A DNA stretch of 64,000 bases from Hordeum vulgare subsp. vulgare (taxonomy: Eukaryota > Streptophyta > Magnoliopsida > Poales > Poaceae): contig NC_058518.1 of the NCBI RefSeq assembly GCF_904849725.1, positions 322,422,581 through 322,486,580 of the forward strand. Direction: 5' to 3'. Shown one piece after another: positions 11,192-59,012 of this stretch. Under the pieces are notes generated by a model. That model made no database searches and was not told where the DNA came from. It saw only the letters and a list, made by a program, of their open reading frames with translations. Each line of letters starts with the position of its first letter. The first letter of the stretch is position 1. A program made the position numbers and the translations under genes.

Positions 11192-11526
11192 GGGTACAGC
11201 GTGCAACCTCTACATAGTGTAAAACTATTAGAATAGTCGTGTGCATAGTCAAGGACAGTTCGGTGGTGTTGTTTAGACTACGTCCAGATGTTTTCGCATT
11301 AACCAAGTGTGTGTGTGTGTGACAAAGATGGTTGTGTGTGAGAGATGATACATGAGCTAAGTCAAATGACTTGACATGACTAATGAACGAGGGACGTTCA
11401 GCCCCTGCTTATGATGATATCTATAACTTGTTCATGTAGATATCCGCAACACGTTGATGCATGCTTTTACAAGATCGATCATGCAACTGCACTCAAAATT
11501 AGCTTTCTGCAAATTAGCTACTTAGT
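11192..11526 (+). repeat. Fragment of an older chromovirus LTR (left piece)
   Basis: Aligns by eye with 7069-7400 of the LTR of element A, including the CTACATAGTGTAAA, CAAGGACAGTT and GT-repeat landmarks. It is interrupted on the left by the Athila LTR and on the right by element B. The same LTR resumes at 37317 after element B. Confidence 0.75.
11522..11526. repeat. Target-site duplication of element B (left copy)
   Basis: TTAGT directly before the LTR, identical to 37317-37321 directly after the other LTR. Confidence 0.9.
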
Positions 11527-14500
11527 TGTAATGCCTAAGATGCGATCCTATCCTTATTTTTGCATGAAGGCCTTGACAGGGATAGAAGCGCATCTTGTCG
11601 TTTTGCAAAAATGGATATCGTTACAAGTAGATGTACTGAAGAGATGAGTATATGGAATTGACTTACACTCGCCACTAGCTACATCTTGTTCACATCAATA
11701 CAACAATAGAGTATCATTATGAAGAAGAGCAGGGTCCAACTACGGACAAAAACAAACGATAAAAGAACGACGTCCATCCTTGCTATCCCAGGCTGCCGCC
11801 CTGGAACCCATCCTAGATCGATGATGAAGAAGAAGAAAACTCCAAACAGCACAGTCATCACACTCACGTCTTAATATCACTTTTCCGGTACCTACAACTA
11901 GGGTTGTAGTAATTTGTGAGCCACAGGGGACTCGTCAATCTCATTTACAAAGGTATCAAGACTAGCAATGCTTAATGGGTGAGGTATGGTTAAGTGGTGA
12001 GGCTGCAGCAAGCGACTAAGCATTTATTTGAGGTGGCTAACTTACGAGTACAATAATAAAAGAGGGGGAGATCTACGCATAGAGGACGTGTACTACTTAT
12101 GATCAAATGAATGATCCTGAACACCTACTTACGTAAGACATAACCCCACCGTTTCCTCGATCGGAGAAGGAGCTCATGAAAGAGACAGTCATGGTTACGC
12201 ATTCAGTTGGCAAGTTTCAATTAAGTTTACTTCAAGTTATCTAGAACCGGATGTTAAACAAAGTTTCCAAGTTAGCCACATAACTGCGGGCATGGCTTTC
12301 CAAAATATTTAACCCTGCAGGGGTGCTCCAAATAGTCTATCACAAACTACCACACACTGCACCGGAATGACCTCGATGAGGGAAAACCCGTGATCTCCTC
12401 GGGTTCCTATTGGGAAACCTCAACCTCGAGAAGTATCCTTGGAATCTAGTTCAGCAAGGCCGCCTGGCATGTCGACAATCCTGATAGGAGCCACGTATCT
12501 AATTCTCAGGACATGACGGATAAGTGAAGTGTACGGTGGCCTGATAGACATCTCCCGAATTGTCGTGGGTTGGCCCCGCACGTTGCTCTGTTTTGGACCA
12601 GCACCAGCAGCACTGGCCCGGATGTATTATGTTGAATTACTCCTCGGGTTCATGACGCCCTATGTCTTTTAGTATTATTATGTTGGGTAAATATAGTACC
12701 AATGTTGGGCCTTGCCAGACGAGTTTTATCCCAAAACAAAAATCTAGGGGGTCCCCATAACAAATCCAAGCATGTTAGGACCGCTCATTTATGGAACATA
12801 ACACCAGTAGCCGAAACTAAGGCGGCAAAGGTGGAACAAAACACCATGCTAGAAGGCCAATCCTTCCAGCTTTTACCAAGTATATAGGTCCATTAAACTA
12901 AATAGCAATTATGTGGTGATATAACAAGGAACCCATGTTTGCACATGGAAGCTACTGCACCTGCAACTAGCAACACTAACAAAAGGCTGAGCAAGCGGTA
13001 ACATAGCCAAACAGTGGTTTGTTGGGTTGTGCAAAGGTTAGAGGTTTTTCATGGCAATGTTGGGAGGCTGATATTTAACACGTGGTAGGCGGCGACAAAT
13101 AGTGAAATAAACGAGACGACTAGCATGGCATTGATAGTAATGGTATCTAGGGAAATGATAATATTGATTGTGATCCTGCTTGGAAGAAGAACCAATCATT
13201 GAAGCAGACGAACCAACATAGTCGAACGGATCCTCACATTCCGAAGTGCCTCAAAACTCTATCGAGAAGAAGCAAACCAGAAACAAGTATCAACACACGA
13301 TATTCACCACACACACGCGTGATGTGATGCACAATCTAATATGATGCATGTCCATTTCAATTATGCAATGCATGGCATGGCAGCTCACAACAATCAAACA
13401 CTACACACTAAGTGAAGCTCAATATGCAACGAGTTGCATATTGACGAAACTCCACATATGAATTAATTAGTTCACTCCTGTTTAGGTACACGGCAATATT
13501 AAATGTTGTTTAAACAGGGCAAGAAGTGAAGCATGTGATTCTACACGTCATTCTAGTCGGTTTACACATATAGCTCATCTCCAACGGAGTTACGGTTAAC
13601 TAGCTACGAATTAAACCATTTCAGCATCGCATCATGCAAAACGAGGCAAACAACAAAGTTAACAGTTTTAAATATGCATGAGTATTGGAAAATATGAATC
13701 TACACGACATTCTACACTTTTTACATATGTATCTTATTTCGATCTGACGCAAGGTTTAAAAGTTATGGACGTTTCAAAATCAATGGTTTTTTCTGAAATC
13801 CCCCGTAATTAGCTAAATCGCACAACGAAAAAATAACAATGCATGGGCCGAATCTGGTGCATTGGATACTATAGGACGCACATGGCGGGGGATAGAGGGG
13901 TGTGCATGGGGCTCATCTCGGGCCCATCAGAGTTGGGCCGGCTCGGGTTGGAGAGGTGGAGACTGGTGAAGGGAGCTGGGTTGGCCGACTCCGGAGGAGG
14001 CCGGGGCTGGGCCACTTGCGGTAGCTGCTGGGTCGGCGCTGGTGGACTTGGGACACAGCGCTCGGGGCGGCTCGAGCTGGCCAACGAGTGGTGATGCTGG
14101 CGCTCGTCCTTCGTGCTCCTCTCGCAGCAAGAGGCGGTGCTGTAGCAAGGTCGACAGGCGACACACGGCGGTCCCAGTGAGGTAGACGGCAATGGGGGGC
14201 ATGCTGAGGCCGGAAACGGGCTCCCCCAGTCCAGATCTGGCCAGATCTCGCTGGCTCGGGCGGCGGCAGCGGCGAGGCACATTGGGGCAGACATAGTGCT
14301 CAGGTCCTGTAGAAAAGAGGGGAGAGGGGTGAGGGAGAGCAAGCAGCAGCAAGGAAAGGAGAGAGGGAGGAGGAGGTCCGGCGGGGTGGGGCCTTATCTG
14401 CTTCGTTGAGCTGCTCTTGTGGGGTCGGGCTCTGACGACCGATGCGGGACGAGGGGCGGATCGAGGACTCGGGAGGAGCTTGGTCTTGGGGAGGGAGTTG

Positions 14501-15231
14501 CGTCTCGTGCTCGCAGCTGCTAAGGCCCGGGCGAGCCGGCTTCGGTACTGGCGGGCCCCGGCGGCTCGACGTGGGTGGAGGAGCTGGTTGCGGCTGCTAG
14601 GGTTTGCATGGGTATCGAGGTGGGAGGCTGGCTGTCCGAATTAGGCAGGAGGTGTTTAAATAGTAATGGGGGCTAGGGTTAGGGGATTTCCGCCTAATTT
14701 AACCCGTTCGATCGCAATCCGATGGCTCCGATCGAAGGGGCTTTGCTAGGTGGGTTAGTGGGCTGTGTAGAGGGGTTGTGGGATGAGAAGAGAGGGAGGT
14801 GACAACCCGTGACACGAGATTTTTAAACACCAACAAACGTTCGATGATAAATCGATGATTGTGCCGCTACGGTTGACCCTTCGCGTATCAAACAAACTCC
14901 GATTGTGACGAAATTTGGCAAGTGGTCTACCTACAATAAAATAAGACCGCACACCAATTTTCAATCAAATCCAAGAATATTTTATACACACTTTTAAAAA
15001 CAAGATGTTAACGATGTCGTGGGCGCGTGCGTGTGTGGTTGGTCTCGAAACTGTCAATGGCAAAACGGAGAGAACCGACAACTAATAACGGATGCAAGTT
15101 TGAAAACTGACGGCAATGGAGGGTCGATGCAATGCGCATGATGCGACGATGAATGCGACAAACAATCTAATGACATGGCGACAGTGGAATAAAAGGGGAA
15201 TCTTCTGGAGCGTCGGTCTCGGGGTGTTATA
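11527..15231 (-). repeat. 3' LTR of element B
   Basis: Plus-strand sequence starts TGTAATGCCTAA and ends GGGGTGTTATA; read on the minus strand it begins TATAACACC, one step decayed from TGTAATAGC in the partner LTR. GC-rich block 13840-14640 and the TATA-like site at 14651-14663 are shared with the partner at 35950-36738. The many overlapping ORFs at 13843-14644 are chance frames in the GC-rich block. Confidence 0.9.
14651..14663 (-). promoter_or_regulatory. TATA-like box in the LTR of element B
   Basis: Minus strand reads CTATTTAAACACC. The same motif is kept at 36726-36738 in the partner LTR, upstream (in element orientation) of the GC-rich leader block. It is the likely retrotransposon promoter. 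Confidence 0.45.
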
Positions 15232-16240: not shown

Positions 16241-19200
16241 TAAACTGTCGGGAGAAAGCACTTTAAATGGCAGGCTATCTGCCGGCACGGTGTTTCTCCT
16301 CGCAGATAGAACCGCCACGCGAATGGCTGTTGGGGATTACTTGTCTCGGCACATACAATATTCCAGGTAGTTCATATGCCCTAGCGCATTTATATGTCGG
16401 CAGTCTACGTTCTCCCGGCATATTAGTCTGGACACATGAAACTTCAATTACCGACAGTTCTACTGTCTGCATAAGCTTGTTTACCCGGGATTATTTTTAC
16501 CACTACGTAGATTTCACTCCAAATTGTTCTAGATATCCCTATGTATACCCATTCAGTATGTTCAAACAATCAGGACAAATCACACAATTTATAGACTTCA
16601 AACAAAGTAACATATGTCTCATTCATACACTTCAATCAAAGTAACATTAGGCCTCATCCAAAACCTTTAAGCTTCATTCGATAATCACATATATATGTCA
16701 CAACCATATGTATATAAGGTGGTTGTGCCACAAAAGCTACAATACATATATGTTTTAAAGTGTGCCACACAACAGACATGAAATAGTGCCACAAAACATA
16801 TGACATAACCACTCCACCAACATAATTGTAGGTCTTCCGAATCTTTAGGAGCTTGAAACTCTTCCAAACATCCATCGACTTGTGTACCTTTCGGAAACCT
16901 ACAACAGATAGGATACTCAAAATGGAGCTCTTGTTTCAGAATTCAAAATTAACAAATTAAAGTTGGCATGCTAGAGTTTAACTCATGGAATATGTACAAA
17001 GACCTGGCAGAGTAGTCATCTTTTCCATCTCAAGCAATAATATGACAGAGGTACAAAAGAATACACTAGACTACAAAGTGACAATTTGACAAACCAAACT
17101 ATGTGCCTATGCCTCCATCTAGAATAGAGAACACAAATATTGCAAGAGTATCACCCAAGAATTGGACTAGCATTTAAGAACAAATGAAGACCTGTGTCAA
17201 ACTAAATACACTTGTCAATGGAAAGATATTTACATATTCACGCTAAAAAGGGCATCAGAACAAGAAGGCCAAGCTTCCACTAATTATATGCAAGAACATG
17301 CATACACATGACATGCAAGAACACCATCATGCATTAAAAGTATAATCGGTCTAGTTACATGGATCAAGCAATTAACCAAGCAGTAACTTAACATCGCACA
17401 CATAGCACCCAATAGAAACATCCATATTACGTCACACAGACCAGCCAACATGGAAAAATGAGGAAAATTTTCTTACAGAACCTCACACGGACCATCCAAA
17501 AAAATCTTCTCAAGGACTTTTGAAGAAGTTTCGCCAAATGTTAACTCTCCCAACTATATTAAATATATAAATATGTTCTGCAGAAAAATAGAATTATATA
17601 GTTAGTAAGATTTTCAAAAATATAAAATCATGCGAACATATAACATTCAGATGTTTACAAACAACCATAAATTGAGTTGCACACTACATTTTCAAATACA
17701 TGTCATAATTATTGAAGGCAGAGACGACAATATGATGTATATATAATCATGTCATTCTACCAAATAGGTAAACAAACATCATATCATGAGTTGCTAGCAT
17801 TTTCTTAAGGTCATAACCATGTAGTTTCTTGGGACTCATTCTGTATTATCCAAGTGTAATCACTGGAAGGTGGTTGGTACTATGTACATGTACGTACTCA
17901 GGTTACTTCCTACTTTCATAGTAAGCAACACACTGTCCGGTGGAAAATCTGGACCTTTTACAGGGAATCACCTATGTTTGATGGATGATAACGATCATGT
18001 TTACAAGGTTGAGAGAAACATGATTACAACAGGAGAAGATGAATTGGAGCATACCTCTTTTTCAGGTTTATGCAGGGCTTGATGGTACATTAATGGCGCG
18101 CCCATGGCTCGGAGAACAAATGATACAGCGAGGCGGAGGATTAGGAAGAGCGTCGGTACGGACTCTAGATGAAGCACGTCGGGACAGGCGGCGAAATGAA
18201 GGAGGATTTTTGCATCAACATAAGAGACAAGGCCAATAGTAAAAAGACAGAGCATGGATTGGATAATGGTTTTTGCAAACTAAATTTAAACAAATCTGCA
18301 TTCAGTATATAAGCAAGAAATCAGTGAAACGCTTTTGAAACAGAAGAATAATGGTAGGCTAATAGGAACTCCCTCCAAGATTTTTTTACCAAATAGAAGA
18401 TCCAACAACTTTGTGGAATTGTCAAGAGTCATGGCTCCTTTAGTATGCTAGATCAAGATTCAAAAAAAATAAGTATCCACATTAGACAAAGAACTCGAGC
18501 ACCTTTTGGTCAAGAAGGAAACATGCTACATTTAAGTTAATTCAACACATCCAAAAGGAATATTTCACATGTTATTCTGCTAAAAGTTAACTTTGAAGCA
18601 TCTGTTCTATCCACATATCATATTTCACAAAACACAAACAAAGATGGTACTACTTTGGGGCATCAACTAAACAAACAAAGACTTAAACTAATTAGATTTC
18701 TTTCATCATAAATTAAAATGAATTCCAAAGCTCAACTAAGCAACTTATTTAGGTGTCAAATGTGAATAATCTAATTTTATTTTCAAACCTGTCTAGCTCA
18801 TGGTCTTTTCGCTGTTATCAGATCAGAGCACTTAAAAATGATAATTTATTCTAACTGTCGGCCTGTATCACACCTACGCATTGCGTAGCTGCACAATAAG
18901 AATAAAAAAGGCATAGAAATTGCAACAAAATCTCACCTGTCAAATGAATTGCAGGAGGCAATGATGTCCAAGGAAAGTTGTTGAGGATGCACAATTGCTC
19001 GCTGGAGAGGACGGTCGGTGGTCTGCTGCTTCAGGGGCGTGTGCAGGGGGTGGACCCGCCGCTTGGTGCTCGGTGAATCTTGCGGGGAGGCCTGCTTGAG
19101 GAGAAAGCGTGCGAGTAGGTTACTGGTGAGGAAGTCGTTCCAGGAGGATGGTGGCCGCTGGTGGAATGACTCAGCGACGAAGGTTGTACTCCCTGTCAAA

Positions 19201-19282
19201 TGGGTGCTCGATGGTGCCGCTCTTTAGTGGGGCAACGACGACAGTGGTCAGCGCCAGTGGAGTGATTGTTGGTGCTGCAAGG
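16241..19282. mobile_element. Unclassified DNA-transposon-like remnant
   Basis: The left 250 bases carry repeated CTGTCGG, TGCCGGCAC and CCCGGCAT motifs in both orientations, like the subterminal repeats of some CACTA elements. Minus-strand segments could be exons of a decayed gene: 19199-18935 ends at a CAG/GTGAGA donor, a piece near 18255-18052 ends at GAG/GTATGC, and one near 16900-16654 follows a TTGTAG acceptor. None matches a family I know. The right end is cut by the Copia LTR at 19283. No terminal repeat pair or TSD was found, so the class is only a suggestion. Confidence 0.35.
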
Positions 19283-19440
19283 TGTTGGGAAACATTGCAT
19301 GGGAAACAAAAAAAAATCCTACGCACACGAAGACCTATCATTGTGATGTTCATCTACAAGAGGGAGATTAGATCCACATACCCTTGTATATCGCTAAGCG
19401 GAAGCGTTATAAAACGCGGTTGATGTAGTGGTACATCTTC

Positions 19441-19500
19441 ATGATCCGTCCCACGAACCATCCCACGAACCGTCTCGCGATCCGTCCCACGATCCGTCCT
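19441..19500 (-). repeat. GATCCGTCCCAC minisatellite in the Copia LTR
   Basis: About five degenerate copies of a 10-12 bp unit (GATCCGTCCCAC / GAACCGTCTCGC). A related run is at 54776-54830 in the other Angela LTR, so it is an LTR feature; the Asp-Gly-Ser-Trp repeats read from it are not protein. Confidence 0.7.
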
Positions 19501-19864
19501 GATCAAGTGTCAAACGGACAGCACCTCCGCGTCCCACACACGTACATCTCGATGACGATCTGTGCCTTCTTGATCCAGCAAGAAGGGCGGGGAAGTAGAT
19601 GTGTTCTCCGGCAGCGCGACGGCGCGCTCGTGATGGTGATGATCTATTCCTGCAGGGCCCCGCCCGAGCTCCGGACAAAACCGATCTAGAGGAAGAACTA
19701 CGATCTAGAGGAGAGGGCAACACGTGGCAAAGTTGTGTCTCAAAATCCCTAAACCTCTAGTATATATAGGAGGAGGGGAGGGGCTAACCTTGGCGCTCCA
19801 AGGAAGGCCTCCTTGGGTCGGTCGAAGTGGGGAAGGGAGTAGTCCTCCTCCAATCACTAGTAGA

Positions 19865-20160
19865 AAAAGGGTCTTTCGGCCGAGGGCCGAAAGACCATTA
19901 GTCCCGGTTCAAACCAAAACCGGGACCAATACCAGGCATTGGTCCCGGTTCGGTTTGTCGGGGAATTGGTCCTAGTTCGGTTCATCTCATTAGTCCCGGT
20001 TCGGGGCAAAAACCGGGACTAACGATCCAGCGACAGCCACATGGCATGTCGCGGAACCACATGGCGTGCCGCGGATCAATAGTCCCGGTTTGTGGCACGA
20101 ACCGGGACTAAAGGATGAGCTATTAGTCCCAGTTTTAGATAAAAACCGGGACTAAAGTGT
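19865..20160. repeat. Left subterminal repeats of the CACTA
   Basis: About nine copies of TTAGTCCCGGTT or its complement AACCGGGACTAA, often in head-to-head pairs, plus a small GGTCTTTCGGCC/GGCCGAAAGACC palindrome at 19869-19893. These are the usual binding sites for CACTA-encoded proteins. Confidence 0.85.
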
Positions 20161-20162
20161 TG

Positions 20163-20174
20163 CCTATATAAACC
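20163..20174 (+). promoter_or_regulatory. TATA box after the left subterminal repeats
   Basis: CCTATATAAACC lies directly after the last subterminal repeat and about 110 bp before the first ATG-led frame (20275), which runs into the 146-bp array and reaches a CAG/GTGAGG donor. A transcript starting here would cross both arrays. Confidence 0.55.
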
Positions 20175-20284
20175 CTCGCCCCTTCCCACCCTCTCCTTTG
20201 TTTTTGGGAGTTCAGGTGTGAGAATGCATGCCATGCTCTTGCCATTCTAGTTCATGCACATGAGGTGTTCGATGAAATGCCCGA

Positions 20285-21940
20285 GCCACCATATATGAGA
20301 GAAGAAGAATTCCAACGGTTGTTGTGGGGGGCGCTTCTCCTTCTTCTCCTTGTGCTAGATATTTGTTATGCACTAGGGGAAGAAGGAGTAGCGACCATCA
20401 TCAACGGTCGAAAAATCAGGTGAGGGAGTGTCCACCATATATGAGAGAATAAGAATGTCGACTGTTGTTGTGGGGGTCGCTTCTCCTTCTTCTCCTTGTG
20501 TAGATATTTGTTATGCACTAGGGGAAGAAGGAGTAGCGACCATCATCGACGGTCGAAAAATCAGGTGAAGGAGTGTCCACCATATATAAGAGAAGAAGAG
20601 TGCCGACTGTTGTTGTGGGGGTCGCTTCTCCTTCTTCTCTTTGTGCTAGCTATTTGTTATGCACTAGGGGAAGAAGGAGTAGCGACCATCATCAATGGTC
20701 GAAAAATCAGGTGAGGGAGTGTCCATCATATATGAGAGAAGAAGAATGCCGAGTGTTGTTGTGGGGGTCGCTTCTCCTTCTTCTCTTTGTGCTAGATATT
20801 CATTATGCACTAGGGGAAGAAGGAGTAGCGACCATCATCGATTGTCGAAAAATCAGGTGATGGAGTGTCCACCATATATGAGAGAAGAAGAATGCTAACT
20901 GTTGTTGTGGGGGTCGCTTCTCCTTCTTCTCTTTGTTCTAGATATTTGTTATGCACTAGGGGAAGCAGAAGTAGCGACCATCATCGACGGTTGAAAAATC
21001 AGGTGAGGGAGTGTCCACCATATATGAGAGAAGAAGAATGCCGACTCTTGTTGTGGGAGTCGCTTCTCCTTCTTCTCTTTGTGCTAGATATTTGTTATGC
21101 ACTAGGGGAAGAAGGAGTAGCGACCACCATCGACAGTCGAAAAATCAGGTGAGGGAGTGTCCATCATATATGACAGAAGAAGAATGTCGACTGTTGTTGT
21201 GGGGGTCGCTCTTCCTTCTTCTCCTTGTGCTAGATATTCATTATGCACTTGGGGAAGAAGGAATAGCGGCCATCATCGACGGTTGAAAAATCAGGTGAGG
21301 GAGTGTCCACCATATATGAGAGAAGAAGAATATCGATTGTTGTTGTGGGGGTCGCTTCTCCTTCTTATCTTGTGCTAGATATTTGTTATGCACTAGGGGA
21401 AGTAGGAGTAGTGACCATCATCGATGGTCAAAAATCAGATGAGGGAGTGTCCACCATATATGAGAGAAGAAGAATGTCGACTGTTGTTGTGGGGGTCGTT
21501 TCTCCTTCTTCTCCTTGTGCTAGATATTTGTTATGCACTAGGGGAAGAAGGAGTAGCGACCATCATCGACGGTCGAAAAATCAGGTGAGGGAGTGTCCAC
21601 CATATATGAGAGAAGCAGAATACCAATTATTGTTGTGGGGGTCGCTTCTCCTTCTTCTCTTTGTGCTAGATATTTGTTATGCACTAGGGGAAGAAGGAGT
21701 AGCAACCATCATCGACGGTCGAGAAATCAAGTGAGGGAGTGTCCACTATATATGAGAGAAAAAGAATGCCGACTGTTGTTGTGGGGTCGCTCTTCCTTCT
21801 TCTCCTTGTGCTAAATATTTGTTATGCGCTAGGGGAAGAAGGAATAGCGACCATCATCGACGGTTGAAAATTCAGGTGAGGAAGTGTCCACCATATATGA
21901 GAGAAGAAGAATGTCGACTGTTGTTATGATCTGCCTTTGA
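20285..21940 (+). repeat. 146-bp tandem array (about 11 copies)
   Basis: The landmark GTGTCCACCATATATGAGAG recurs at about 20428, 20574, 20720, 20866, 21012, 21158, 21304, 21449, 21594, 21740 and 21886, a period of 146 bp with one-base drifts. Units are highly alike. Each contains GAAGAAGGAGTAGCGACCAT and ends AAAAATCAGGTGAGGG, so each carries a good 5' splice-site consensus (CAG/GTGAGG). Because 146 is not a multiple of three, successive units are read in different frames, and the repeated peptides seen in the ORFs here are frame artefacts rather than a repeat protein. Confidence 0.9.
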
Positions 21941-24560
21941 ATGGTGCATTTTCAACACACAAAAAGTGTGGAGTTCAAATAAGTTCAAAAAAAGAAATCC
22001 CTTTGTAACAGATGAGTTCTCGTTCGAAACCCTAATACTTCGAGAGAGATTGTCCATTTTCTACACAAAGTGCATCTAGTTTTTGTCGTAACCCTCTCAA
22101 CTTTTTAGCACATGCTATGTGCGTGAAATAATGATACCATGCCAACATTCAACATTTTGACAGTTCATTTGTGGTGCTTTTCAATTTCAGGGTCAACTAG
22201 CTTAAAAACATAAAGTTAATGCACGAAAAATATCAAAGGAAGTCAGAAATTGTTGAAAATTTGTGATGTGCCTTTCAATGGTGCATTTTGAACACACAAA
22301 AAGTATGGAGTTCAAATAAGTTCAAAAAAATAAAATCCCTTTGTGACACATGAGTTCTCATTCAAAACTCTGATACTTCGAGAGAGATTGTCCGTTTTGT
22401 ACATGAAGTACATCCAGTTTTTGTCGTAACCCTCTCAACTTTTTAGCACATGTTATGTGGGTGAAATGATGATACCATGCCAACTTTCAACATTTTCAGA
22501 GTTCATTTGTAGTTCTTTTCAATTTTAGGGTCAACTAGCTCAAAAAAATAAAGTAAATGCACGAAAAATACCAAATGAAGTCAGAAATTGTTGAAATTTT
22601 TTGATGTGCCTTTATATGGTGCATTTTGAACACACAAAAAGTATGGAGTTCAAATAAGTTCAAAAAATGAAATCCCTTTGTAACACATGAGTTCTCGTTC
22701 GAAACTCTCATACCTCAAGAGAGATTGTTCGTTTTGTACACGAAGTGCATCCATTTTTTGTCGTAACCCTCTCAACTTTTTAGCATATGCTATGTGGGTG
22801 AAATTATGATACCATGCTAGTTTTCAACATTTTCAGAGTTCATTTGTAGTGATTTTCAATTTCAGGGTCAACTAGCTCAAAAAAATAAAGTAAATGCACG
22901 ACAAATACCAAATGAAGTCAGAAATTGTTGAAAAATTGCGATGTGCCTTTGAATGGTGCATTTTAAATACACAAAAATTATGGAGTTCAAGTAAGTTCAA
23001 AAAATGAAATCCCTTTGTAACACATAAGTTCTCGTTTGAAACCCTCATACTTCGAGAGATATTGTCCGTTTTGTACACGAAGTGCATCCATTTTTTGTCG
23101 TAACCCTCCCAACTTTTTAGCACATGATATGTGGGTGAAATGATGATACCATGCCAACTTTCAACATTTTTAGAGTTCATTTGTAGTGCTTTTCAATTTC
23201 AGGGTCAACTAGCTCAAACAATAAAGTAAATGCACGAAAAATACCGTCAGGAATTGTTGAAAATTTGTGATGTGCCTTTGAATGGTGCATTTTGAACACA
23301 CACAAAATATGGAGTTCAAATAAGTTCAAAAATATGAAATCCCTTCGTAACACATGAATTCTCGTTCGAAACCTTGATACTTCAAGAGAGATTGTCCGTT
23401 TTGTACACGAAGTGCATCCAGTTTTTGTCCTAACCCTCTCAACTTTTTAGCACATGCTATGTGGGTGAAATGATGATACCGTGCGGACTTTCAACATTTT
23501 CAGAGTTCATTTCTAGCACTTTTCAATTTCAGGGTCAACTAGCTCAAAAAAATAAAGTAAATGCACGAAAAATACCAAATGAAGTCAGAAATTGTTGAAA
23601 TTTTTTGATGTGCCTTTTAATGGTGCATTTTGAACACACAAAAAGTATGGAGTTCAAATAAGTTCAAAAAAATGAAATCCCTTTGTAACACATGAGTTCT
23701 TGTTCGAAACCTTGATACTTCGAGAGAGATTTTCCGTTTTGTACGCGAAGTGCATCCAGTTTTTGTTGTAACCCTCTCAACTTTTTAGCACATGCTATGT
23801 GGGTGAAATGATGGTACCATGCCACATTTCAACATTTTCAGAGTTCATTTGTAGTGCTTTTCAATTTCAGGGTCAACTAGCTCAAAAAAATAAAGTAAAT
23901 ACACGAAAAACACCAAATGAAGTCAGAAATTGTTGAAAATTGGTGATGTGCCTTTGAATGGTGCAGTTTGAACACACAAAACGTATGGAGTTCAAATAAG
24001 TTCAAAAAATGAAATCCCTTTGTAACACACGAGTTCTCGTTCGAAACCCTCATACTTCAAGAGAGATTGTCCATTTTGTACACGAAGTGCATCCAGTTTT
24101 TGTCGTAACCCTGTCAACTTTTTAGCACATGCTATGTGGGTGAAATGATGATACCATGCCAACTTTCAACATTTTCAGAGTTCATTTGTAGTGCTATTCA
24201 ATTTCAGGGTCAACTAGCTCAAAAAAATTAAGTAAATGCACGAAAAATACCAAATGAAGTCAGAAATTGTTGAAAATTTGTGAGGTGCCTTTGAATGGTG
24301 CATTTTGAACACACAAAAAGTATGGACTTCAAATAAGTGCAAAAAACGAAATCCTTTGTAACACATGAGTTCTCGTTTGAAACCCTCATACTTCGAGAGA
24401 GATTGTCCGTTTTGTACACGAAGTGCATCCAGTTTTTGTCGTAACCCTCTTAACTTTTTAGCACATGCTATGTGGGTGAAATGATGATACCATGCTAACT
24501 TTCAACATTTTTAGAGTTCATTTGTAGTGCTTTTCAATTTCAGGGTGAACTAGCTCAAAA
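21930..24560 (+). repeat. 338-bp tandem array (8 copies)
   Basis: The landmark GCCTTTGAATGGTGCATTTT recurs at about 21933, 22270, 22608, 22946, 23274, 23612, 23950 and 24286, a period of 328-338 bp. Each unit is AT-rich and non-coding. It includes TTCGAGAGAGATTGTCCGTTT and a pyrimidine-rich TTTTCAATTTCAG/GGTCAACTAGCTC segment that resembles a 3' splice site. The array directly follows the 146-bp array with no gap. Confidence 0.9.
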
Positions 24561-24877
24561 ACTTTTAGTAAATGCATGAAAAAATAATCAACTAAAATTA
24601 TCAAAGTGCTTATTTGTTAAAAAGAATAAAGTAAAACATTAACTAAAAACAAACAAAAAAATCAACTAAAAAGAATTTTCAAAAAGTTTTTTGGTTAAAA
24701 TCTTTAATAGAAAACTGAAATAGAACAGAAATAAATGAAAGTAAAGTTATTCACAAATTTTAAAGAATTCAAATTTGAAAACTAAATATTTAGCTGTAAG
24801 TAGAAAAAAATAAAAATAAAGCAAAGAATAAAACAAAAATAATGGAAAAAATTGAAACTATATGAGAATTTATAGAG

Positions 24878-24947
24878 AAAATTCAACCTAAATTCAAAGT
24901 GACATCACTTTCCAAAGTGACCTCACTTTGAATTTAGGTTGAATTTT
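24878..24947. repeat. Compound perfect hairpin
   Basis: Two perfect 25-base arms (24878-24902 and 24923-24947) enclose 20 bases that themselves contain a 7-bp palindrome, TCACTTT-CC-AAAGTGA (24905-24920). The outer arms also end in AAAGTGA/TCACTTT. It sits in the AT-rich stretch 24560-24960 right of the 338-bp array; nothing else is recognisable in that stretch. Confidence 0.9.
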
Positions 24948-25099
24948 GTCCATATGTTCAAATATATTTTCAATTTTTAAATTTACAGTGCATTTAGGCC
25001 TGTAAGCCTGCTTTAGAGAGGAGCTCGACACGGTTGGGACAGCGGGGCTTATAAACCAGTCGCGGCTCCTCTCGACAAGCGAGGTGGGACTAAACTTTG

Positions 25100-25320
25100 G
25101 AATGCCGCCAGCCCAGGCCTTTAGTACCGGTTCGTGGCACGAACCGTGACTAAAGACCCCCTTTAGTCCCGGGTCGAGCCACGACCCGGGACTAAAGACC
25201 CTCGTTTCCCGCCACTCCGCCTGCCGAAAAGGGGTCTTTAGTCCCGGGTCGTGGCTCGACCAGGGACTAAAGGGTGTTTTTAGTCACGGTTCGTGCCACG
25301 AACCGGGACCAAAGCTCCAC
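25100..25320. repeat. Internal block of CACTA terminal-type repeats
   Basis: Inverted pairs such as AGTACCGGTTCGTGGCACGAACCGTGACT and AGTCCCGGGTCG..CGACCCGGGACT occur deep inside the element, 4 kb from the nearest end, in the style of the outer subterminal repeats. They stop just before a TATA-like box at 25321. Confidence 0.8.
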
Positions 25321-25328
25321 CTATATGG
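25321..25328 (+). promoter_or_regulatory. TATA-like box upstream of the B3-like gene
   Basis: CTATATGG follows directly after the internal terminal-type repeats, as CTATATAAACC does at the left end. It is followed by a GC-rich segment (25390-25745) that looks like a 5' untranslated exon. The likely promoter of the three-exon gene at 26218. Confidence 0.45.
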
Positions 25329-25539
25329 GCGGTAGTTGGAAATTTTTTATGTCCAAATCGCGGTTTCATCTTCTTCCTCCTCTCGCGCGCGACCCGGACG
25401 AACCCTCGATCGACGCTGACTCTTCCCCGACGCGCCGTCGCCGTCTCCGCGCTCCTCCTCGTCGCCGCCTCCCTCGCCTTCAATGTCATTGTTGTCGCTG
25501 CCGCCTCCCTCGCTGTCGCCGCCGCCCCCCTCCCCTCCC

Positions 25540-25745
25540 GCAGTAAGCCCCCTTGCCCTCTCCGGCTCCGGTAAGCCGGTCGGCCCCACGCTCCGGTAAG
25601 CCCACTCCCTCCAGTCGCCGCCGCCCCCTCCCCTCCCACGGTAAGCCCCCTCCCCCTCTCCGGCTCCGGTAAGCCGGTCGGACCCCTCGCTCCGGTAAGC
25701 CCACTCCCTCCAGTCGCCACCGCCCCCCTCCCCTCCCACTCTAGC
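25540..25745 (+). repeat. GC-rich duplication with many GGTAAG donors
   Basis: A roughly 104-bp unit occurs twice. Each holds CGGTAAGCC(GG) and CGGTAAGCCCAC, and copies of CAGTAAGCC or ACGGTAAGCC precede them, giving about six possible 5' splice sites in 200 bp. The next strong acceptor downstream is ACAG/GAAATG at 26214/26215, three bases before the start codon of the B3-like gene. Confidence 0.7.
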
Positions 25746-26217
25746 ACCCCAAGGCTGCTGCCATGTAGATTTGTGCCATCGGTTCAAGCTACTAGAACAA
25801 ATTGAAATAATGGAAATTGAGATGCATATGTTAATAAGAAAATCAAGATATGTATGTTTGTTGAAGATCTTTTGATGGGCTAACTAGAAAGAAGGAAAAA
25901 ATAATGTTTGTAAATCTCATGTAAGTAGGCACACATTAGGTTTGAATTAGACAACCAATGGTTTATTTAAACTTTGGAGAGGAAAAAGGCACATACATAT
26001 TTCACCAACTTACAAATATCATCCTTTTGTTGGTGTTAATATAATGCATAAAACAGTAGTTAGTTTCTCACTTTTGCTTGCTAAATTGTGCTAAGTTTTG
26101 TCAGAATGTCCGAGTGGCCTAGCTAACTATGTTTATATATATATAGATGTTCAATTCTTTCGATATATATAGTGTCACGATTGTTGTTTACACACATTTA
26201 CCACATTAAAACAGGAA

Positions 26218-28545
26218 ATGTTTGACGATGGATATTGGGAGTGTGAGTATTGCGGCGACTGTCGGGGTATCTGCTACACGTCTCACCTGCGAGACAATAG
26301 GTTCTTCAGCATGAAGCTTGACGAGAATATTGATATGTACCTCCCTTTCCATGCAGGAGGATATGTGTTGGAGAGGCTCGGTTTCGAAGACCACGAGAGA
26401 ATTGAGACAAGGAGCGCTAACTTGAGGACCATACATGGTCACACATTTGATATCCAAGTATTTAATTCAGTTTTTCAAACAGAATTTGGGTGCCCAAAGT
26501 GGGAAGATTTTTGCAAGGCATATGGATTTCAGGAGGGTATGGAAATCACCTTCGATCTTCGTCCTGAAGATAATATGCCAGACAACATCGACATTTGGGT
26601 GGTTGTCGATGATATGCTTGTTGTTTTACCTCCATGTGAGTTTTGATCTCAACCATATTTGTCAAGTAATTTGCATTTATATTTAGAAATAGTTGGTGTC
26701 AACCTGTTTTTCTCTCTATTTATTTCCCAATTGAATTTTAAGTTTTTAGCAAGTTATACACATATCTTCTGAATATTGTAAAAAATTATAAGAATATTTA
26801 GGAACACTAAAATTTTAATTTTATCCAGTGGTATCGGCATAACACCTTAACACCGGTATCACTAAATATTCTTTGCAAAAGTTGATCTAATTGTTTGATC
26901 CTGAAAATAACTACACGTAGAGGTTTAGATTTCTCACGAGAATTGTATTCTGTAGTAAGAGAGTCCTCTCGCAATTTACATGTCATGTGGTGTTCATCGT
27001 CTATTAAAAGATTTGTTTGGTGCTCAATATTTAATGAAACGGCTGGGAAGTTGAGTTGTACTACCGGTCCAAATATATACTTCCAATAAGAAATGACCAT
27101 TAATTCCACCGAATAACGAGTGATATGCCCTGAAAATTGAACAATTGAAAACTTTGGCCACATGTTGCAGGTTCATAGTTATTGGGCCATAGTTACTACT
27201 GTACTAAATAATTGTCTCATGTTACATGTTGTACAACAACAATAACACATTGTGCTTAGGGACGTGGAAACGTCAAGATGCTATTATAGACCAGCAGCTC
27301 ACCATCGTAATATGAAGAAACTCCCTATATAGGTCGATGAAAAGGGATGCTCTAACTTCTTAGTTTGGACACCGGCTTGAGTGGCGGAGGATGTCATCAC
27401 TCGTCGGGATGCAACCTACTAACTAGAGTAACAGATGACAAGATGATTGAAAATCGTCATGGACTTGTCACTAAAAAGGAAGATAAATAGGTGGTACAAA
27501 CGTTTTAGACTAGGATTGTACTGGATGCGTACGCAACATCCAGTCATGTTTAATACCATAATTAAGTTTGCAGGTGTATGGACTCTTAGGCTGAAGAGAA
27601 TAATTAGTTGCCGGACCGATAGTGAATCATTAAATTGTCCTTTGAATGATCGTAGCACATGTGTGGTCATTTTGAATGGTTTATATAATGCCTACATTGT
27701 GTGGAACTGTTTAGAGCTCAAGGTGTACTATTAGAAAATTGAATTTGATGTTTTAACAAGTTATACTCATATCTTGTGGACATTTACAAAATTTCTAAGT
27801 ATTTTTGAAACATTAAATTATTACAAAATTTGGGTGATTGTCGATGATATGCTTCGTGTTTTACCTCCATGTGAGTTTGTCAACCATATTTGTCAAGTAA
27901 TTTGCATTTATATTTAGAAATAGTTGGTGTTCATACATATACTAAATTTGTTAAATTATAATTTACAGCTTATTTCGTTGCTTCGACTGCATTACGAAAG
28001 TTAATTGACACGACACACTACACGTATGGATCAAATCTAACTTGGGAGGAGAAGGATGTTCTTCTCCACTTTCTTGTTGCTCGTGTTCTGGCTTCTAGGG
28101 ATACCTTCCCATGTCATTTTGGAATTGGCCAAAATTATTCATTTTACATGCCACTAGTGCATAGGTTGAGGCCGGATGACATTCGCCGAAATGTCTTGGT
28201 AAGAGTTTCCTAATTAAGTACGCTCTACTATTGCATAAATGGTGTTGATTACATTGCTAACTAGGTTATTATTATGTTCTTCAACAGCAACTGACACATG
28301 ATGTAGTGCCTCTGTTGATGCACCCAGAAAGTCAAATAAAAATTAGAAGCTCGCTGAGGGCTGAGTTCGATGCTCCATACTCGAGAAACCTCAAATCAAG
28401 ATCAAAAAGGCTCCAAATTGAGGCATGGAGAGAAATAAAGAAAGTTTGCAACCCACAAGCTGGAGACCATTGGATCTCTGTGATTCATCAAGGAGACATA
28501 GGTGTTATTCTGTTTTATGACATTATATCTAAGAGCGAGGACTAG
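26218..28545 (+). CDS. CACTA-borne three-exon gene, Cys-cluster / B3-like protein, 301 aa
   Basis: Coding exons are 26218-26635, 27969-28198 and 28288-28545 (906 nt, stop included). Junctions are canonical: acceptor ACAG at 26214, donor CAT/GTGAGT at 26636, acceptor TTTACAG/CT at 27968, donor TTG/GTAAGA at 28199, acceptor TTCAACAG/CAA at 28287. Phases agree throughout and no stop interrupts. Residues 9-23 form a C-x2-C-x2-C-x3-C-x3-H cluster, a possible metal site. Residues 29-135 have the spacing of a plant B3 DNA-binding domain: FF..L, L-P at 42-43, W95-x2-F98, E-G at 106-107 and F112. Residues about 190-295 suggest a second, weaker B3-like half with W..I and A-G-D. The B3 assignment is inferred from motif spacing only. 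The protein could be a captured host gene or the element's own TNPA-like DNA-binding factor. The gene lies between the internal promoter-like block and the right subterminal repeats. Confidence 0.7.
27735..27945 (+). repeat. Duplicated exon end and intron start within intron 1 of the B3-like gene
   Basis: 27836-27945 repeats 26597-26700 nearly base for base: the last 40 bases of the first coding exon, its CCTCCAT/GTGAGTTT donor, and the first 65 intron bases. The adjacent 27738-27830 repeats 26735-26820. About 0.9 kb of unrelated sequence (26820-27735) lies between the copies. The second exon copy lacks its upstream part and would need a new acceptor to be used. Confidence 0.75.
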
Positions 28546-29155
28546 GTCTTATGAGAGACAAGTTATTCTGGTTTATATTATTACTTGACATGATCGATTA
28601 GGATGCATGCATATATGCATGATGACTATATATATATTATGATGTTTCTCTCTTTTATTTTATGTGTATCATATGATAACTTGGTATATGATTAAGATGA
28701 TGATGAGTTGTTAGATGATCAATTAGAATACTATTGCCACGGAAATGATATGAAATGATATAGTGCAAAAAAGATGCATATATGTGCATGTAACTCGTGT
28801 CTACATTTTGTAAATATATTCGACAAAGCACGACGGATGAGATGGTGTAATATATTCGTGACGATGAGCAATATATATGTAGCAAATAAATGGGAAAATA
28901 GGGGGCAGAAAAATAGCCCATCCAATTAAGTGCAAAACCCTAAACCCAAAAATTGCTCAAAAAACAACGAAGAAATAGCCCCGGTTCGTAATACGAACCG
29001 GGACTAATACCCCTCCCCCCTCGCTCCCAGACCCGCCACGTGGAAGGCCATTAGCCCCGGTTCGAGGCCGAATCGGGGCTAGCAATAGTCCCGGTTGATT
29101 AGTCCCGGTTCGCGAACCGGGACTAATGGTCCAACCGAACCGGGGCTAAATGCCC
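28546..29155. repeat. 3' flank and right subterminal repeats of the CACTA
   Basis: 28546-28975 is AT-rich with many TATATA runs and probably holds the 3' untranslated region of the B3-like gene; nothing else is visible there. From 28976 on, AGCCCCGGTTCG / CGAACCGGGACT repeats in both orientations lead to the terminal repeat. The GTTCGCGAACCGGGACT palindrome at 29106-29124 is the clearest pair. Confidence 0.8.
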
Positions 29156-29631
29156 TTTTTCTACTAGTAAATCCCAATTGGATTAGGACTCCTTCCTTAT
29201 TTTCCCACCTCTTTTGGATTTTCCACTTTTTTCTCATGGGTTTTCCTTGGATGAATTTCTCAGCCCATTATACCTTATTGCACATCCAATAAACCCATGT
29301 GGACCCCTTGGGGCGTGGTGGGCCCACCCAGTGGGCCCCCGAAACCCATTCGTCACTCCCGATACACTACCGACAATGACCGGAAACCTTCCGGAATCCA
29401 AATACCAACTTCCTATTTATCAATCTTCGTTTCCGGACCATTCCTAAAACCCTCGTGACGTCCGGGATCTCGTCCGGGACTCCGAACAAAACTTCGGTCA
29501 CCAACACATATAACTAACCTATACCGAAACGTCACTGAACCTTAAGTGTGCAGACCCTACGGGTTCGAGAACTATGCACACATGACCTGAGACACTCTCT
29601 GGTCAATAACCAACAGCGGGACCTGGATGTC

Positions 29632-31075
29632 TGATACGTCTCCGTCGTATCTACTTTTCCAAAGTCTTTTGCCCTTTTTTTGGAATCTAATTTGCATGAT
29701 TTCAATGGAACTAACCCGAACTAACGTTGTTTTCAGCAGAATTGCCATGGTGTTGTTTTTGCGCAGAAATAAAAGTTCTCGGAATGACCTGGAAATTTAC
29801 GGGGATTTTTTGTGGAATATATAAAAAATACTGGCGCCAGAATCAACCGGAGGGGTGGAGCTGAGAGCCCACAAGCCCACTAGGCGCGGGGCCCCCCCTG
29901 GCCGCGCCTGGCAGGCTTGTGGGGCCCACGAAGCTCCACCGCCTCCGATCTCAGCTCTATTTAGTCCCTTTCGTCCGGAAAAAAATCAAGGAGAAGAGTT
30001 CATCGCGTTTTACAATACGGAGGCGCCGCCAACTCCTGTTCTTCCTGTGGAGGGCAGATCTGGAGTCCGTTCTGGGCTCCAGAGAGGGGAGATCATCGCC
30101 ATCGTCATCACCAACCTTCCTTCATCGCCAATTCCATGATGCTCTTCACCGTTCGTGAGTAATCTCATCGTAGGCTTGCTGGACGGTGATGGGTTGGATG
30201 AGATCTATCATGTAATCGAGTTAGTTTTGACGGGGATTGATCCCTAGTATCCACTGTGTTTTGAGATTGATGTTGCTACTACTTTGCCATGCTTAATGCT
30301 TGTCACTAGGGCCCGATTGCCATGATTTTAGATCTAAACCTATTATGTTGTCGCCAATATATGTGTGTTCTTGATCCTATCTTGCAAGTTGTAGTCACCA
30401 ACTATGTGTTATGTCCCGGCAACCCCGGAGTGACAATAGCCGGAACCACTCCCGGAGATGACCATACTATGAGGAGTTCATGTATTCACCAAGTGTTAAC
30501 GCGTTGGTCTGGTTCTTTATTGAAAGGAGAACCTTAATATTCCGTAGTTTCCATTAGGACCCCGCTGCCACGGGAGGGATGGACAATAGATGTCATGCAA
30601 GTTCTTTTCCCTAAGCACGTATGACTACATACGGAATACATGCCTACGTTACATTGACGAACTGGAGCTAGTTACATATCTCTCCGTGTTATAACTGTTA
30701 CATGATGAATAGCATCCGGCATAATCATCCATCACCGATCCAATGCCTACAAGTTTTTCCTACTAGTCCCTGCTACGTTACTTTGCCGCTACTGTTGTCA
30801 CTCCTGCTACTGTTACTCTGTTGCTACTTCTATTACTTTGCTGCTACTGGTGTCACTTTGTTGCTACTGGTTACCGTTGCTACTGTTGCTACCACACTAC
30901 TCTGCTACTGATACTTTGCTGCAGATACTAAGTCTTTCAGGTGTGGTTGAATTGACAACTCAACTGCTAATACTTGAGAATATTCTTTGGCTTCCCCTTG
31001 TGTCGAATCAATAAATTTGGGTTGAATACTCTACCCTCGAGAACTGTTGCGATCCCCTATACTTGTGGGTTAGCA
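29632..31075 (+). repeat. 5' LTR of the WHAM-like element
   Basis: Starts TGATACGTCTCC and ends TACTTGTGGGTTAGCA (expected TATCA). Length 1444 bp. It includes a stretch rich in GCTACT/TTGCTACTG at 30765-30925. Confidence 0.85.
30765..30925 (+). repeat. Degenerate GCTACTGTT simple repeat in the LTR
   Basis: Short-period CTACTG/TTGCTAC tract. The Leu-rich peptides it yields in one frame are not a gene. Confidence 0.7.
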
Positions 31076-33756: not shown

Positions 33757-33759
33757 ACT

Positions 33760-36700
33760 TGTAACGCCTAATATGGGATCCTATCCTTATTTTGGCACGA
33801 GGGCCTCGACAGGGATAGAAGCGCATCTCGTCGTTTTGCAAGAATGGATATCGTTACAAGTACACGTACTGAAGAGATGAGTATATGGAATTGGCCTACA
33901 CTCGCCACAAGCTACATCAAGTTCACATCAATACAACAATATACATTCATCATGAAGAAGAGCAGGGTCCGAGTACGGACGAAAACAAACGATAAAAGAA
34001 CGACATCATCCTTGCTATCCCAGGCTGTCGGCCTGGAACCCGTCGTGGTGAGTCTGCAGCAAGCGATTAAGCATTTATTTGAGGTGGCTAACTTACGAGT
34101 ACAAGAATAAAAGAGGGGGAAAGTATACGCATAGCGGACGTGAACTACTTATGATCAAATGAATGATCCTGAACACCTACTTACGTCAGACATAACCCCA
34201 TCGTATCCTCGATCAGAGAAGGATCTCGCGAAAGAGACAGTCATGGTTACGCACTGAGTTGGCAAGTTTTAATTAAGTTTACATCAAGTTATCTAGAACC
34301 GGATGTTAACCAAAGTTTCCAAGTTTGCAACATAACCGTGGGCACGGCTTTCCGAAAGATTTAACCCTGCAGGGGTGCTCCAACTCGTACATCACAAACT
34401 ACCATACGCCGCGCTAGAATGACCTCGATGAGGGAAAACCCGTGATCTCCTCGGGTTCCTATTGGGAAACCTCAACCTCGAGAAGTATCCTCGGAATCAC
34501 ATGCACGAGACACTCGAGAAAGGTAAAACAAGTCCAGCAAGGCTGCCCCGCGTGTCGACGATCCCAATAGGATCCGCGTATCTCGTTCTCAGGACATGAC
34601 GAAAAAGCGAAGCGTACGGTGGCCTGATAGACATCTCCCGAGTTGCCCCAGGTTGGCCCCGCACGATGTTTTGTTTTGGACCAACACCAGCAGCACTGGC
34701 CCCCTGATTATGTTGAGTTACTCCTCGGGTTCATGATGCCCTATGTTTTCAGTATTATTATGTTGGGAAAATATAGTACCAATGTTGGGCCTTGCCAGAC
34801 GAGTTTTACACCAAAACAAAAATCTAGGGGGTCCCCATAACAACCCCAAGCATGTTAAGAGCGCTCATTTATGGAACATAACACCGGTAGCTGAAACTAA
34901 GGCGACAAAGGTGGAACAAAACACCAGGCTAGAAGGACAAGCCTTCCACCTTTTACCAAGTATATAGGTGCATTAAATTAAATAGCGATTATGTGGTGAT
35001 ATAACAAGGAACCCATGTTTGCACATGGAAGCAACTGCACCTGCAACTACAACGCTAACAAAAGGATGAGCAAGCGGTAACATAGCCAAAGAGTGGTTTG
35101 CTAGGTTATTGAAAGGGTAGAGGTTTTTCATGGCAATGTTGGGAAGCTGACATTTAACAAGTGGTAGGCAGCGAGACATAGCGAAAGAAAATAGAAAAAT
35201 GGCATGGCATTGATAGTAATTGTATCTAGGGAAATGATCATCTTGCATGTGACCCCGCTTGGAAGAAGAACAAATCCGTGAAGTAGACGAACCAACGCAG
35301 TCGAACGGATCCTCACATTCCGAAGCGGATCGGAACTCTATCGAGAAGAAACAAACTAGAAACAAGAATCAACACACGATATTCACCACGCACATGCACG
35401 ATATGATGCACAATCTAATATGATGCATGTCCATTTCAATTATGCAAGGCATGGCATGTCAACTCACAACAATCAAACACTACAAATTAAGTGAAGCTCA
35501 ATATGCAATGAGTTGCGTATTGACGACACTCCACATATGAATTATTTAGTTCACTCCCGTTTTGGTACACGGCAATATTAAACGTTGTTTAAACATGAAA
35601 ATAGGTGAAGCATGTGATTCTACACGTCATTCTAGTCGATTTAAACATATAGCTCATCTCCAACGGAGCTACGAATTAAACCATTTTAGCATGACATCAT
35701 GCAAAACGAGGCAAACAACAAGGTTGACAGTTTTAAATATGCATGAGAGTTGGAAAATATTAATCTACACGACATTCTACATGTTTTACATATCTAACTT
35801 ATTTCGATCCGACGCGCGGTTTAAAAGTTATGGACGTTTTAAAATCAATGTTTTTTCTGAAATCCCCCATAATTAGCTAAATCGCAGAACGAAAAAAAAA
35901 CAATGCATGGGTCGAATCTGGTGCGTTGTATACTATAGGACGCACATGACGGGGGGGTAGAGGGGTCTGCAGGGGGCTCACCTCAGGCCCATCGGAGTTG
36001 GGCTCGCTCGGGCTAGAGAGGTGGAGACAGGTCGGAGGGAGCTGGGCTCGCCAGCTCGGGAGGAGGCCGGGGCTGGGCCACTTGCGGCACCTGCTGGGCC
36101 CACGCTGGTGGACTTGGGCCGGGGCGCTGGGGACGGCTCGAGCTGGGCCAAGATCAGCGATGCTGGCGCTCGTCCTTCGTTCTCCTCGCGCACTAGCACG
36201 CGGCGGCGCAGCAAGTTCAACGGGTGACGCACGATGGTCCCGACGAGGTGGACGGTGATGGCGGGGCGAGCTGAGGCCGGAAACGGGCTCCCCCGGTCCA
36301 GATCTGGCTGGATCCGACTGGCTGGGGTGGCGATGGTGGCGAGGCACATCGGGGCAGCCATGGCGGTCGGGTCCTGCAGAGAAGAGGGGAGAGAGGTGAG
36401 GGAGAGTAAGCAGCAGCAAGGAAAGGAGAGAGGGAGTAGGAGGTCCGGCAGGCTGGGGCCTGCTCTACTTCAGCGGGCTGCTCTGGCGGGGTTGGGCTCC
36501 GGTGACCGGCGCGGGCATGCGTGGGACGAGTGGCATCGGGGGCTCGGGAGGAGCTCGGGCTTGGGGAGGGAGCTGCATCTCGCGCTCAAAGTGGCTCGGG
36601 CCCGGGCGGGACGGCTTCGGGGCTGTAGGGCCCTGGCGGCCGGAGGTGGGTGGAGGAGCTGGTTGCGGTGGCTAGGGTTTGCACGGGTTTTGAGGTGGGA

Positions 36701-37316
36701 GGCTGGTTGTCCAAATTATCCAGGGGGTGTTTAAATAGGAATGGGGGCTAGGGTTAGGGGATTTAAGCCCGATTCGAGCCGTTCGATCGCAATCCGACGG
36801 CTCCGATCGGAGGGTGTTTGCTAGGTGGGTTAGTGGGCTGCATAGAGGGGTTGTGGGCTGCGAAGAGAGGGAAGTGGCAGCCCGTGACACAAGATTTTTA
36901 AACACCGACAAACGTCCGACGATAAACCGATGACGGTGCTGCTACGGTCGACCGTTCGGGTATCAAACGAACTCCGATTGCGACGACATTTGGCAGGCGG
37001 TCTACCTACATTAAAATAAGACCGCGTGTCAACTTTCAACCCAATCCGAGAATATTTTATATACACTTTTAAAAAACAAGATTTTAACGATGTCGCGGGC
37101 GCATGCGTCTATGGTTGGTCTCGAAACGGACAACGGCAAAACGAAGAGAACCGACAACTAATAACAGATGCAAGTTTGAAAACTGACGGCAACGGAGTGT
37201 CGATGCAATGCGGATGGTGTGCATGATGCGACGATGAATGCGACAAACAATCTAATCACACAGCGGCAACGGAATAAAAGGGGAATCTTCTGAAGCGTCG
37301 GTCCCGGGCTATTACA
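33760..37316 (-). repeat. 5' LTR of element B
   Basis: Plus-strand ends are TGTAACGCC and GGGCTATTACA, so the minus-strand LTR is TGTAATAGCCC...GGCGTTACA. It aligns with 11527-15231 over its full length with substitutions and small indels (for example extra bases around 34500-34535). GC-rich ORFs at 35877-36734 are chance frames. Confidence 0.92.
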
Positions 37317-59006: not shown

Positions 59007-59012
59007 TAGATC

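Follow-up and report, generated by a model that had tools for sequence, protein, structure and literature searches.

A spliced gene with a predicted B3 domain inside a barley CACTA transposon, from a high-copy Triticeae family: a candidate binder of subterminal repeats

In the CACTA transposon En/Spm, the TNPA protein arises by alternative splicing with the transposase. En/Spm requires both of these proteins; the subterminal repeats are recognised by TNPA, which is also a regulator of its own activity (PMC2613891). TNPA and TNP1, which come from different CACTA families, are reported to be dissimilar, and the diversity of such proteins is thought to track that of the repeats (PMC2613891). More generally, the product of the second CACTA gene is described as having no known function, except in specific families, for which a role in excision and transposition has been determined (PMC4158355). 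CACTA elements also capture genes: on wheat chromosome 3B, where they constitute 16% of the transposable-element fraction, 140 capture events involving 145 genes, mostly fragments, have been reported, with 26% transcribed and 13% both transcribed and under purifying selection (PMC4290129). Here, we describe a gene located at 26218..28545 (+ strand) of a 64-kb stretch of barley DNA (Hordeum vulgare subsp. vulgare, contig NC_058518.1, positions 322,422,581 to 322,486,580), which is referred to as a whole as the window. This gene lies in a CACTA element and encodes a protein with a predicted B3 domain. What is new is that this transposon-borne B3 protein belongs to a high-copy family, and that its gene stands behind a private repeat block with a TATA-like box.

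The gene consists of three exons (26218..26635, 27969..28198, and 28288..28545, the last including the stop codon), separated by an intron of 1,333 bp (26636..27968) and a second intron at 28199..28287. When joined, the exons give an open frame of 301 amino acids with GT-AG introns, and no stop, frameshift, or broken splice site occurs across the 906 coding bases. Six annotated proteins of 307–309 amino acids cover 96–99% of this model in alignments that cross both splice junctions, which provides independent backing for it; exon 2, a linker, is collinear in the relatives. The intact three-exon gene of 301 codons proposed earlier from the letters of the window (hereafter, the sequence-only reading) is thus borne out. 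For the second donor there are three in-frame GT candidates, of which 28199 (GTAAGA) looks best; the alternatives would yield 299 or 303 amino acids. Immediately 5' of the ATG, a CAG at 26212–26214 looks like the acceptor of an intron in a putative 5' untranslated region (25350..26214), which is G+C-rich and in which a 98-bp repeat carries several donor-like GGTAAG sites. This acceptor may be the fifth splice site counted in the sequence-only reading.

Exon 1 (residues 1–139) encodes a cysteine segment followed by the B3 domain. The AlphaFold2 (AF2) structures predicted for this exon, with relatives in the alignment, and for one relative (P0024) both match B3 chains. The exon-1 model contains six strands of at least three residues and two helices, and the B3 fold is an open beta-barrel with two helices. 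In Pfam, B3 (PF02362) was the only family matched by the window protein at E ≤ 10 (E = 0.073). Its score of 13.4 bits (15.3 for the exon-1 open reading frame, or ORF) falls below the gathering cut-off of 30.1, as do those of three of nine relatives (24.1, 20.5, and 19.4 bits); the other six had no listed match. Because the predicted structure and these sub-threshold scores point to the same fold, the assignment of residues ~26–134 to a B3 domain is supported. Among the checks proposed beforehand, structure prediction gave the B3 fold, and the profile search of the spliced protein named B3 and no other family, but under the cut-off.

The second half of the protein is a different matter. The sequence-only reading saw B3-like spacing in both halves, and support was obtained for the first of these. 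In the model of a relative, the C-terminal domain, encoded by exon 3, is predicted to be all-beta, and by our own reading the order of strands and helices in the second half resembles that of the first half, which is insufficient as evidence for a second B3 domain. When residues 28–140 were aligned with residues 196–309 by hhalign, using 12 full-length sequences, the score of 10.3 fell short both of 20.7, the highest value among 60 column shuffles, and of 18.0 for a reversed control. The comparison thus detected no internal duplication, with the limit that a distant one could be missed in such shallow alignments (Neff ~2). The N-terminal cluster also needed revision: the C-x2-C-x2-C-x3-C pattern, read earlier with a further x3-H, is present in the window but in none of the 21 fetched relatives that have the segment. 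The family pattern is instead C-x2-C-x6-C (16 of 21), followed by x3-H in 9 of 21, and a metal site is possible there. Several weaker matches were set aside: a sequence search of solved structures returned mitochondrial NADH dehydrogenase subunit B7 at E ≥ 0.08 and one capsid row at E 0.66, neither of which was trusted, and nothing was made of zf-4CXXC_R1 for the exon-1 ORF (E 0.026, below cut-off) or of PIRC1_2 for two relatives (E 0.017 and 0.16).

An iterated protein search revealed the extent of the family. The single protein found three relatives, whose profile retrieved 23 at E ≤ 10 (22 of them strong), and a third search with full-length members as query reached 337 clusters at E ≤ 0.1. 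The description of the family rests on the best 120 of these, in which the named relatives belong to Triticum, Aegilops, or Hordeum, except for one record (P0046) filed under Trichinella patagoniensis, which is probably plant contamination of that assembly. The full-length members (307–319 amino acids) come from Triticum and Aegilops and are labelled hypothetical or uncharacterized; a Hordeum member has 288 amino acids. Over nearly their whole length, the 11 longest aligned relatives (288–319 amino acids) are 32–43% identical to the window protein. Nearer relatives (P0001, P0002, P0004, and P0012; 82–88% identical) are fragments on contigs of ~1 kb. Among the 127 fetched proteins, 73 are ORFs of 90–97 amino acids that correspond mainly to one exon, and clusters of such exon-only ORFs hold up to 677 member sequences, a count that mixes genome copies with repeated assemblies. 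Thirteen clusters carry T. aestivum VPH35 names, and their longest contigs are of 10 different sizes. Together, the member counts and the variety of VPH35 contigs suggest a dispersed, high-copy family. No relatives were found among the viral contigs or prokaryote genome contigs searched, which is no surprise if the gene is a plant one.

The transposon itself is well delimited. It is a CACTA (DTC) element of 9,315 bp (19855..29169), which starts with CACTAGTAGAAAAAGGG (CACTAG at its very beginning) at 19855; its terminal inverted repeats match at 16 of 17 positions, with A in place of G as the 3' terminal base (29169). A 3-bp target-site duplication, AAT, lies on both sides (19852–19854 and 29170–29172). 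In addition, the repeat that received the element occurs again at 53955–54981 (minus strand), as a paralogous empty site: once the element and one AAT are removed, the joined flanks (77% and 79% identical to this other copy) line up with it and show no gap where they meet. Since none of the 26 stop-to-stop ORFs of at least 80 amino acids in the element matches a Pfam transposase family at E ≤ 0.1, the element is classed as non-autonomous. Its clear ends and target-site duplication, like the absence of a visible transposase, had been noted in the sequence-only reading and are confirmed here.

The subterminal repeats are built on a near-palindromic 12-mer, AGTCCCGGTTCG, which matches 24 times in the 64 kb with at most two mismatches; 23 of these matches are inside the element, in three blocks. 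Those near the ends hold seven units on the left (19900..20153), with a TATA-like box (TATATA) behind them at 20165, and eight on the right (28977..29147). The third, internal block (25118..25318) contains eight units and forms an inverted repeat with 83-bp arms that are 94% complementary. Directly behind it, at 25321..25328 (+ strand), stands a TATA-like box (CTATATGG) that faces the gene and would be its promoter. Another TATA-like box, at 25048 (CTTATAAA on the + strand), faces away from the gene, so that the two boxes diverge from either side of the inverted repeat, as in a divergent promoter; what the left-facing box would drive is now occupied by a tandem array. Two such arrays fill much of the element, one of 146 bp x 11.3 (20286..21925) and one of 337 bp x 7.9 (21927..24583), each with 91% matches. 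In the interval 19000–30000, Rfam gave no match at gathering scores.

From the gene, the element, the high-copy family, and the repeat blocks, which are established, and from a B3 fold that is predicted, we infer transcription, repeat binding, and a role in transposition as follows. Rather than a recent single capture, the gene would be the second gene (ORF2) resident in a Triticeae CACTA lineage, and its product would comprise the N-terminal cysteine segment, one plant-type B3 domain, and an all-beta domain at the C-terminus. Transcription would be driven by the TATA-like box that follows the internal block, and the transcript would then be spliced. The B3 domain would bind the near-palindromic repeats at both ends of the element and before its own promoter; in this manner the protein could aid excision as TNPA does for En/Spm, with transposase supplied from elsewhere, and could regulate its own promoter. 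That the gene is the ORF2 of this lineage, encoding a repeat binder and self-regulator, is a reading that we hold tentatively, at a little under an even chance. A broader proposal, to which we give less credence, is that a Triticeae CACTA lineage recruited a plant B3 domain to bind its subterminal repeats, with repeat block and TATA-like box as a promoter module, and that the hundreds of copies diversified together with the repeats.

Between the two options left by the sequence-only reading, a captured host gene or a TNPA-like factor, the evidence favours the latter over a one-off capture: a family of 337 clusters, a little non-coding DNA shared with two relatives, and a private repeat block with its TATA-like box all make a single captured host gene a less fitting explanation. 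Several observations weigh against the TNPA-like reading. The CACTA setting of the family gene is known from the window copy alone, and the non-coding similarity to that copy, seen in two relatives, is short: for P0001 it sets in 36 bp before the start codon, and P0002 has matches to parts of intron 1. Nothing like the alternative splicing with transposase that produces TNPA is seen in the element, which has no transposase match among its ORFs, and the Pfam search of the window protein listed no TNPA-type or transposase family; this last gap weighs little, since such proteins are known to share little similarity among CACTA families. A host B3 gene might also have been captured long ago by a CACTA ancestor and multiplied as cargo, with no part in transposition. 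This would agree with the host transcription-factor nature of the B3 fold, with the lack of transposase matches in all 26 ORFs, and with the frequency of gene capture reported for wheat CACTA elements (PMC4290129). Useless cargo should decay, however, whereas this old family, with full-length members as little as 32–43% identical to the window protein, has kept a constant length, the same order of domains, and collinearity across the splice junctions. Substitutions are also uneven across the sites of the family exon (93 amino acids): over 85 sites in 73 of the 127 fetched sequences, after removal of the start methionine and of columns with at least 20% gaps, the variance/mean is 2.85, and five sites have changed once or not at all, where 0.4 such sites would be expected. 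These figures agree with past constraint on the protein, although mutational unevenness could also produce them, as could the retrieval of the sequences through short words in common, which is biased towards conserved stretches. (An earlier version filtered on FEDHE, with 55 sequences and a variance/mean of 3.99, was replaced, as the filter had fixed five sites.) Passive cargo seems somewhat less likely than the TNPA-like reading. More improbable still is an ordinary host multigene family, that is, dispersed Triticeae B3 genes of which one copy was caught by the CACTA element of the window. The full-length members are indeed annotated as chromosomal hypothetical proteins, and the B3 genes of barley are reported to have expanded, mainly through tandem duplication, and to include an orthogroup of 41 genes of low expression (PMC10171312); this expansion may or may not concern the window family, and if it does, it would favour either a host family or mis-annotated transposon genes. 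Such a family would not readily account for 337 clusters that include many exon-only ORFs, the largest holding 677 member sequences (copies and assemblies mixed), for close relatives that share some of the non-coding DNA of the window copy, or for the repeat block and TATA-like box that precede the gene.

The state of the window copy is a separate question, and one answer, that it is a recently inserted and already dying pseudogene whose intactness reflects youth, is compatible with any of these readings; we consider it evenly balanced. Of the 139 residues encoded by exon 1, 14 differ from those of every close relative compared (two to five per site), and at four of the 14 the relatives also disagree with each other. 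Four of the changed residues lie at well-conserved family positions: D20 (20/21), C44 (26/30), R47 (28/30), and R48 (23/30). The substitutions C44F, R47G, and R48G are a further point against a working repeat binder here, in that the window protein may bind DNA poorly. The altered terminal base at the 3' end of the element and the long intron 1 with its duplicated donor are in line with decay as well. In a rough neutral estimate, these 14 changes correspond to ~42 substitutions per 906 bases, with 1.7 stops expected and a probability of ~0.18 of finding none (stop fractions at transition weight 2; stops only, so that indels would lower the chance). On the other side are the 906 coding bases with neither frameshift nor broken splice site, and a B3 fold still predicted from the window exon, with relatives in the alignment. 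The earlier description of the gene as kept intact is accurate for the frame; as a sign of present selection, intactness is weak evidence, and we reject it as proof. With conserved residues lost, an intact frame does not prove that this copy works.

The introns of the family have a history of their own. The stretch that spans the end of exon 1 and the donor region (26593–26699) recurs inside intron 1 at 27828–27930 (92.5% identical over 107 bp), so that two potential donors, 1.2 kb apart, face a single acceptor. By our own reading, intron 1 is apparently short and read through in three relatives (P0032, P0038, and P0040), which indicates that it probably grew within the lineage of the window gene; parts of the long form are also present in P0002. 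Five other relatives (P0018, P0019, P0020, P0023, and P0054) have, again by our reading, an apparent additional intron right before the motif IPCHARRYV. The window copy and its close relatives lack it and are two residues shorter at this point, which suggests a precise intron loss.

Elsewhere in the window, two long copies of one repeat (11526–15229 and 33759–37314) are 86–90% identical and in the same orientation. By eye, long ORFs at 46895–50961 (minus strand) resemble a broken long interspersed nuclear element (LINE) with endonuclease, reverse transcriptase, and RNase H pieces, and others at 54996–61147 (+ strand) resemble a Gypsy-type retrotransposon split over several frames.

If the TNPA-like reading is true, it would show a transposon lineage drawing its repeat-binding protein from a host fold, it would provide a defined protein–repeat pair for tests of co-evolution, and it would suggest that such hypothetical proteins annotated in wheat are transposon genes. 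Judging by titles and the beginnings of abstracts, none of the papers listed in literature searches is recognisable as describing a CACTA element with a B3 protein; the gene may already be recorded as a hypothetical protein in TREP or in the primary literature on Triticeae CACTA elements. Compared with the plant B3 superfamily (VAL1, NGA1, ARF, TEM1, FUS3, RAV1, and VRN1), the window protein and its relatives score below the Pfam gathering cut-off, and we know of no B3 architecture with this cysteine segment and C-terminal domain. Like TNPA of En/Spm, TNP1 of Tam1, and the putative Tgmt* binding protein, the window protein is encoded by a CACTA element whose subterminal repeats are palindromic, and it is likely DNA-binding. 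It differs from them in its predicted B3 fold and shares no Pfam family with them, as judged by Pfam and not by direct comparison with TNPA. Its gene, whose product is proposed by analogy to bind the repeats, also differs from TNPA in having a promoter-like block of its own, where TNPA relies on the alternative splicing of a transcript shared with the transposase. Finally, like the genes reported as captured on wheat chromosome 3B, it is a spliced gene inside a CACTA element; whereas those are described as 145 genes from 121 families, mostly fragments (PMC4290129), the window gene belongs to one large repeated family of constant architecture.
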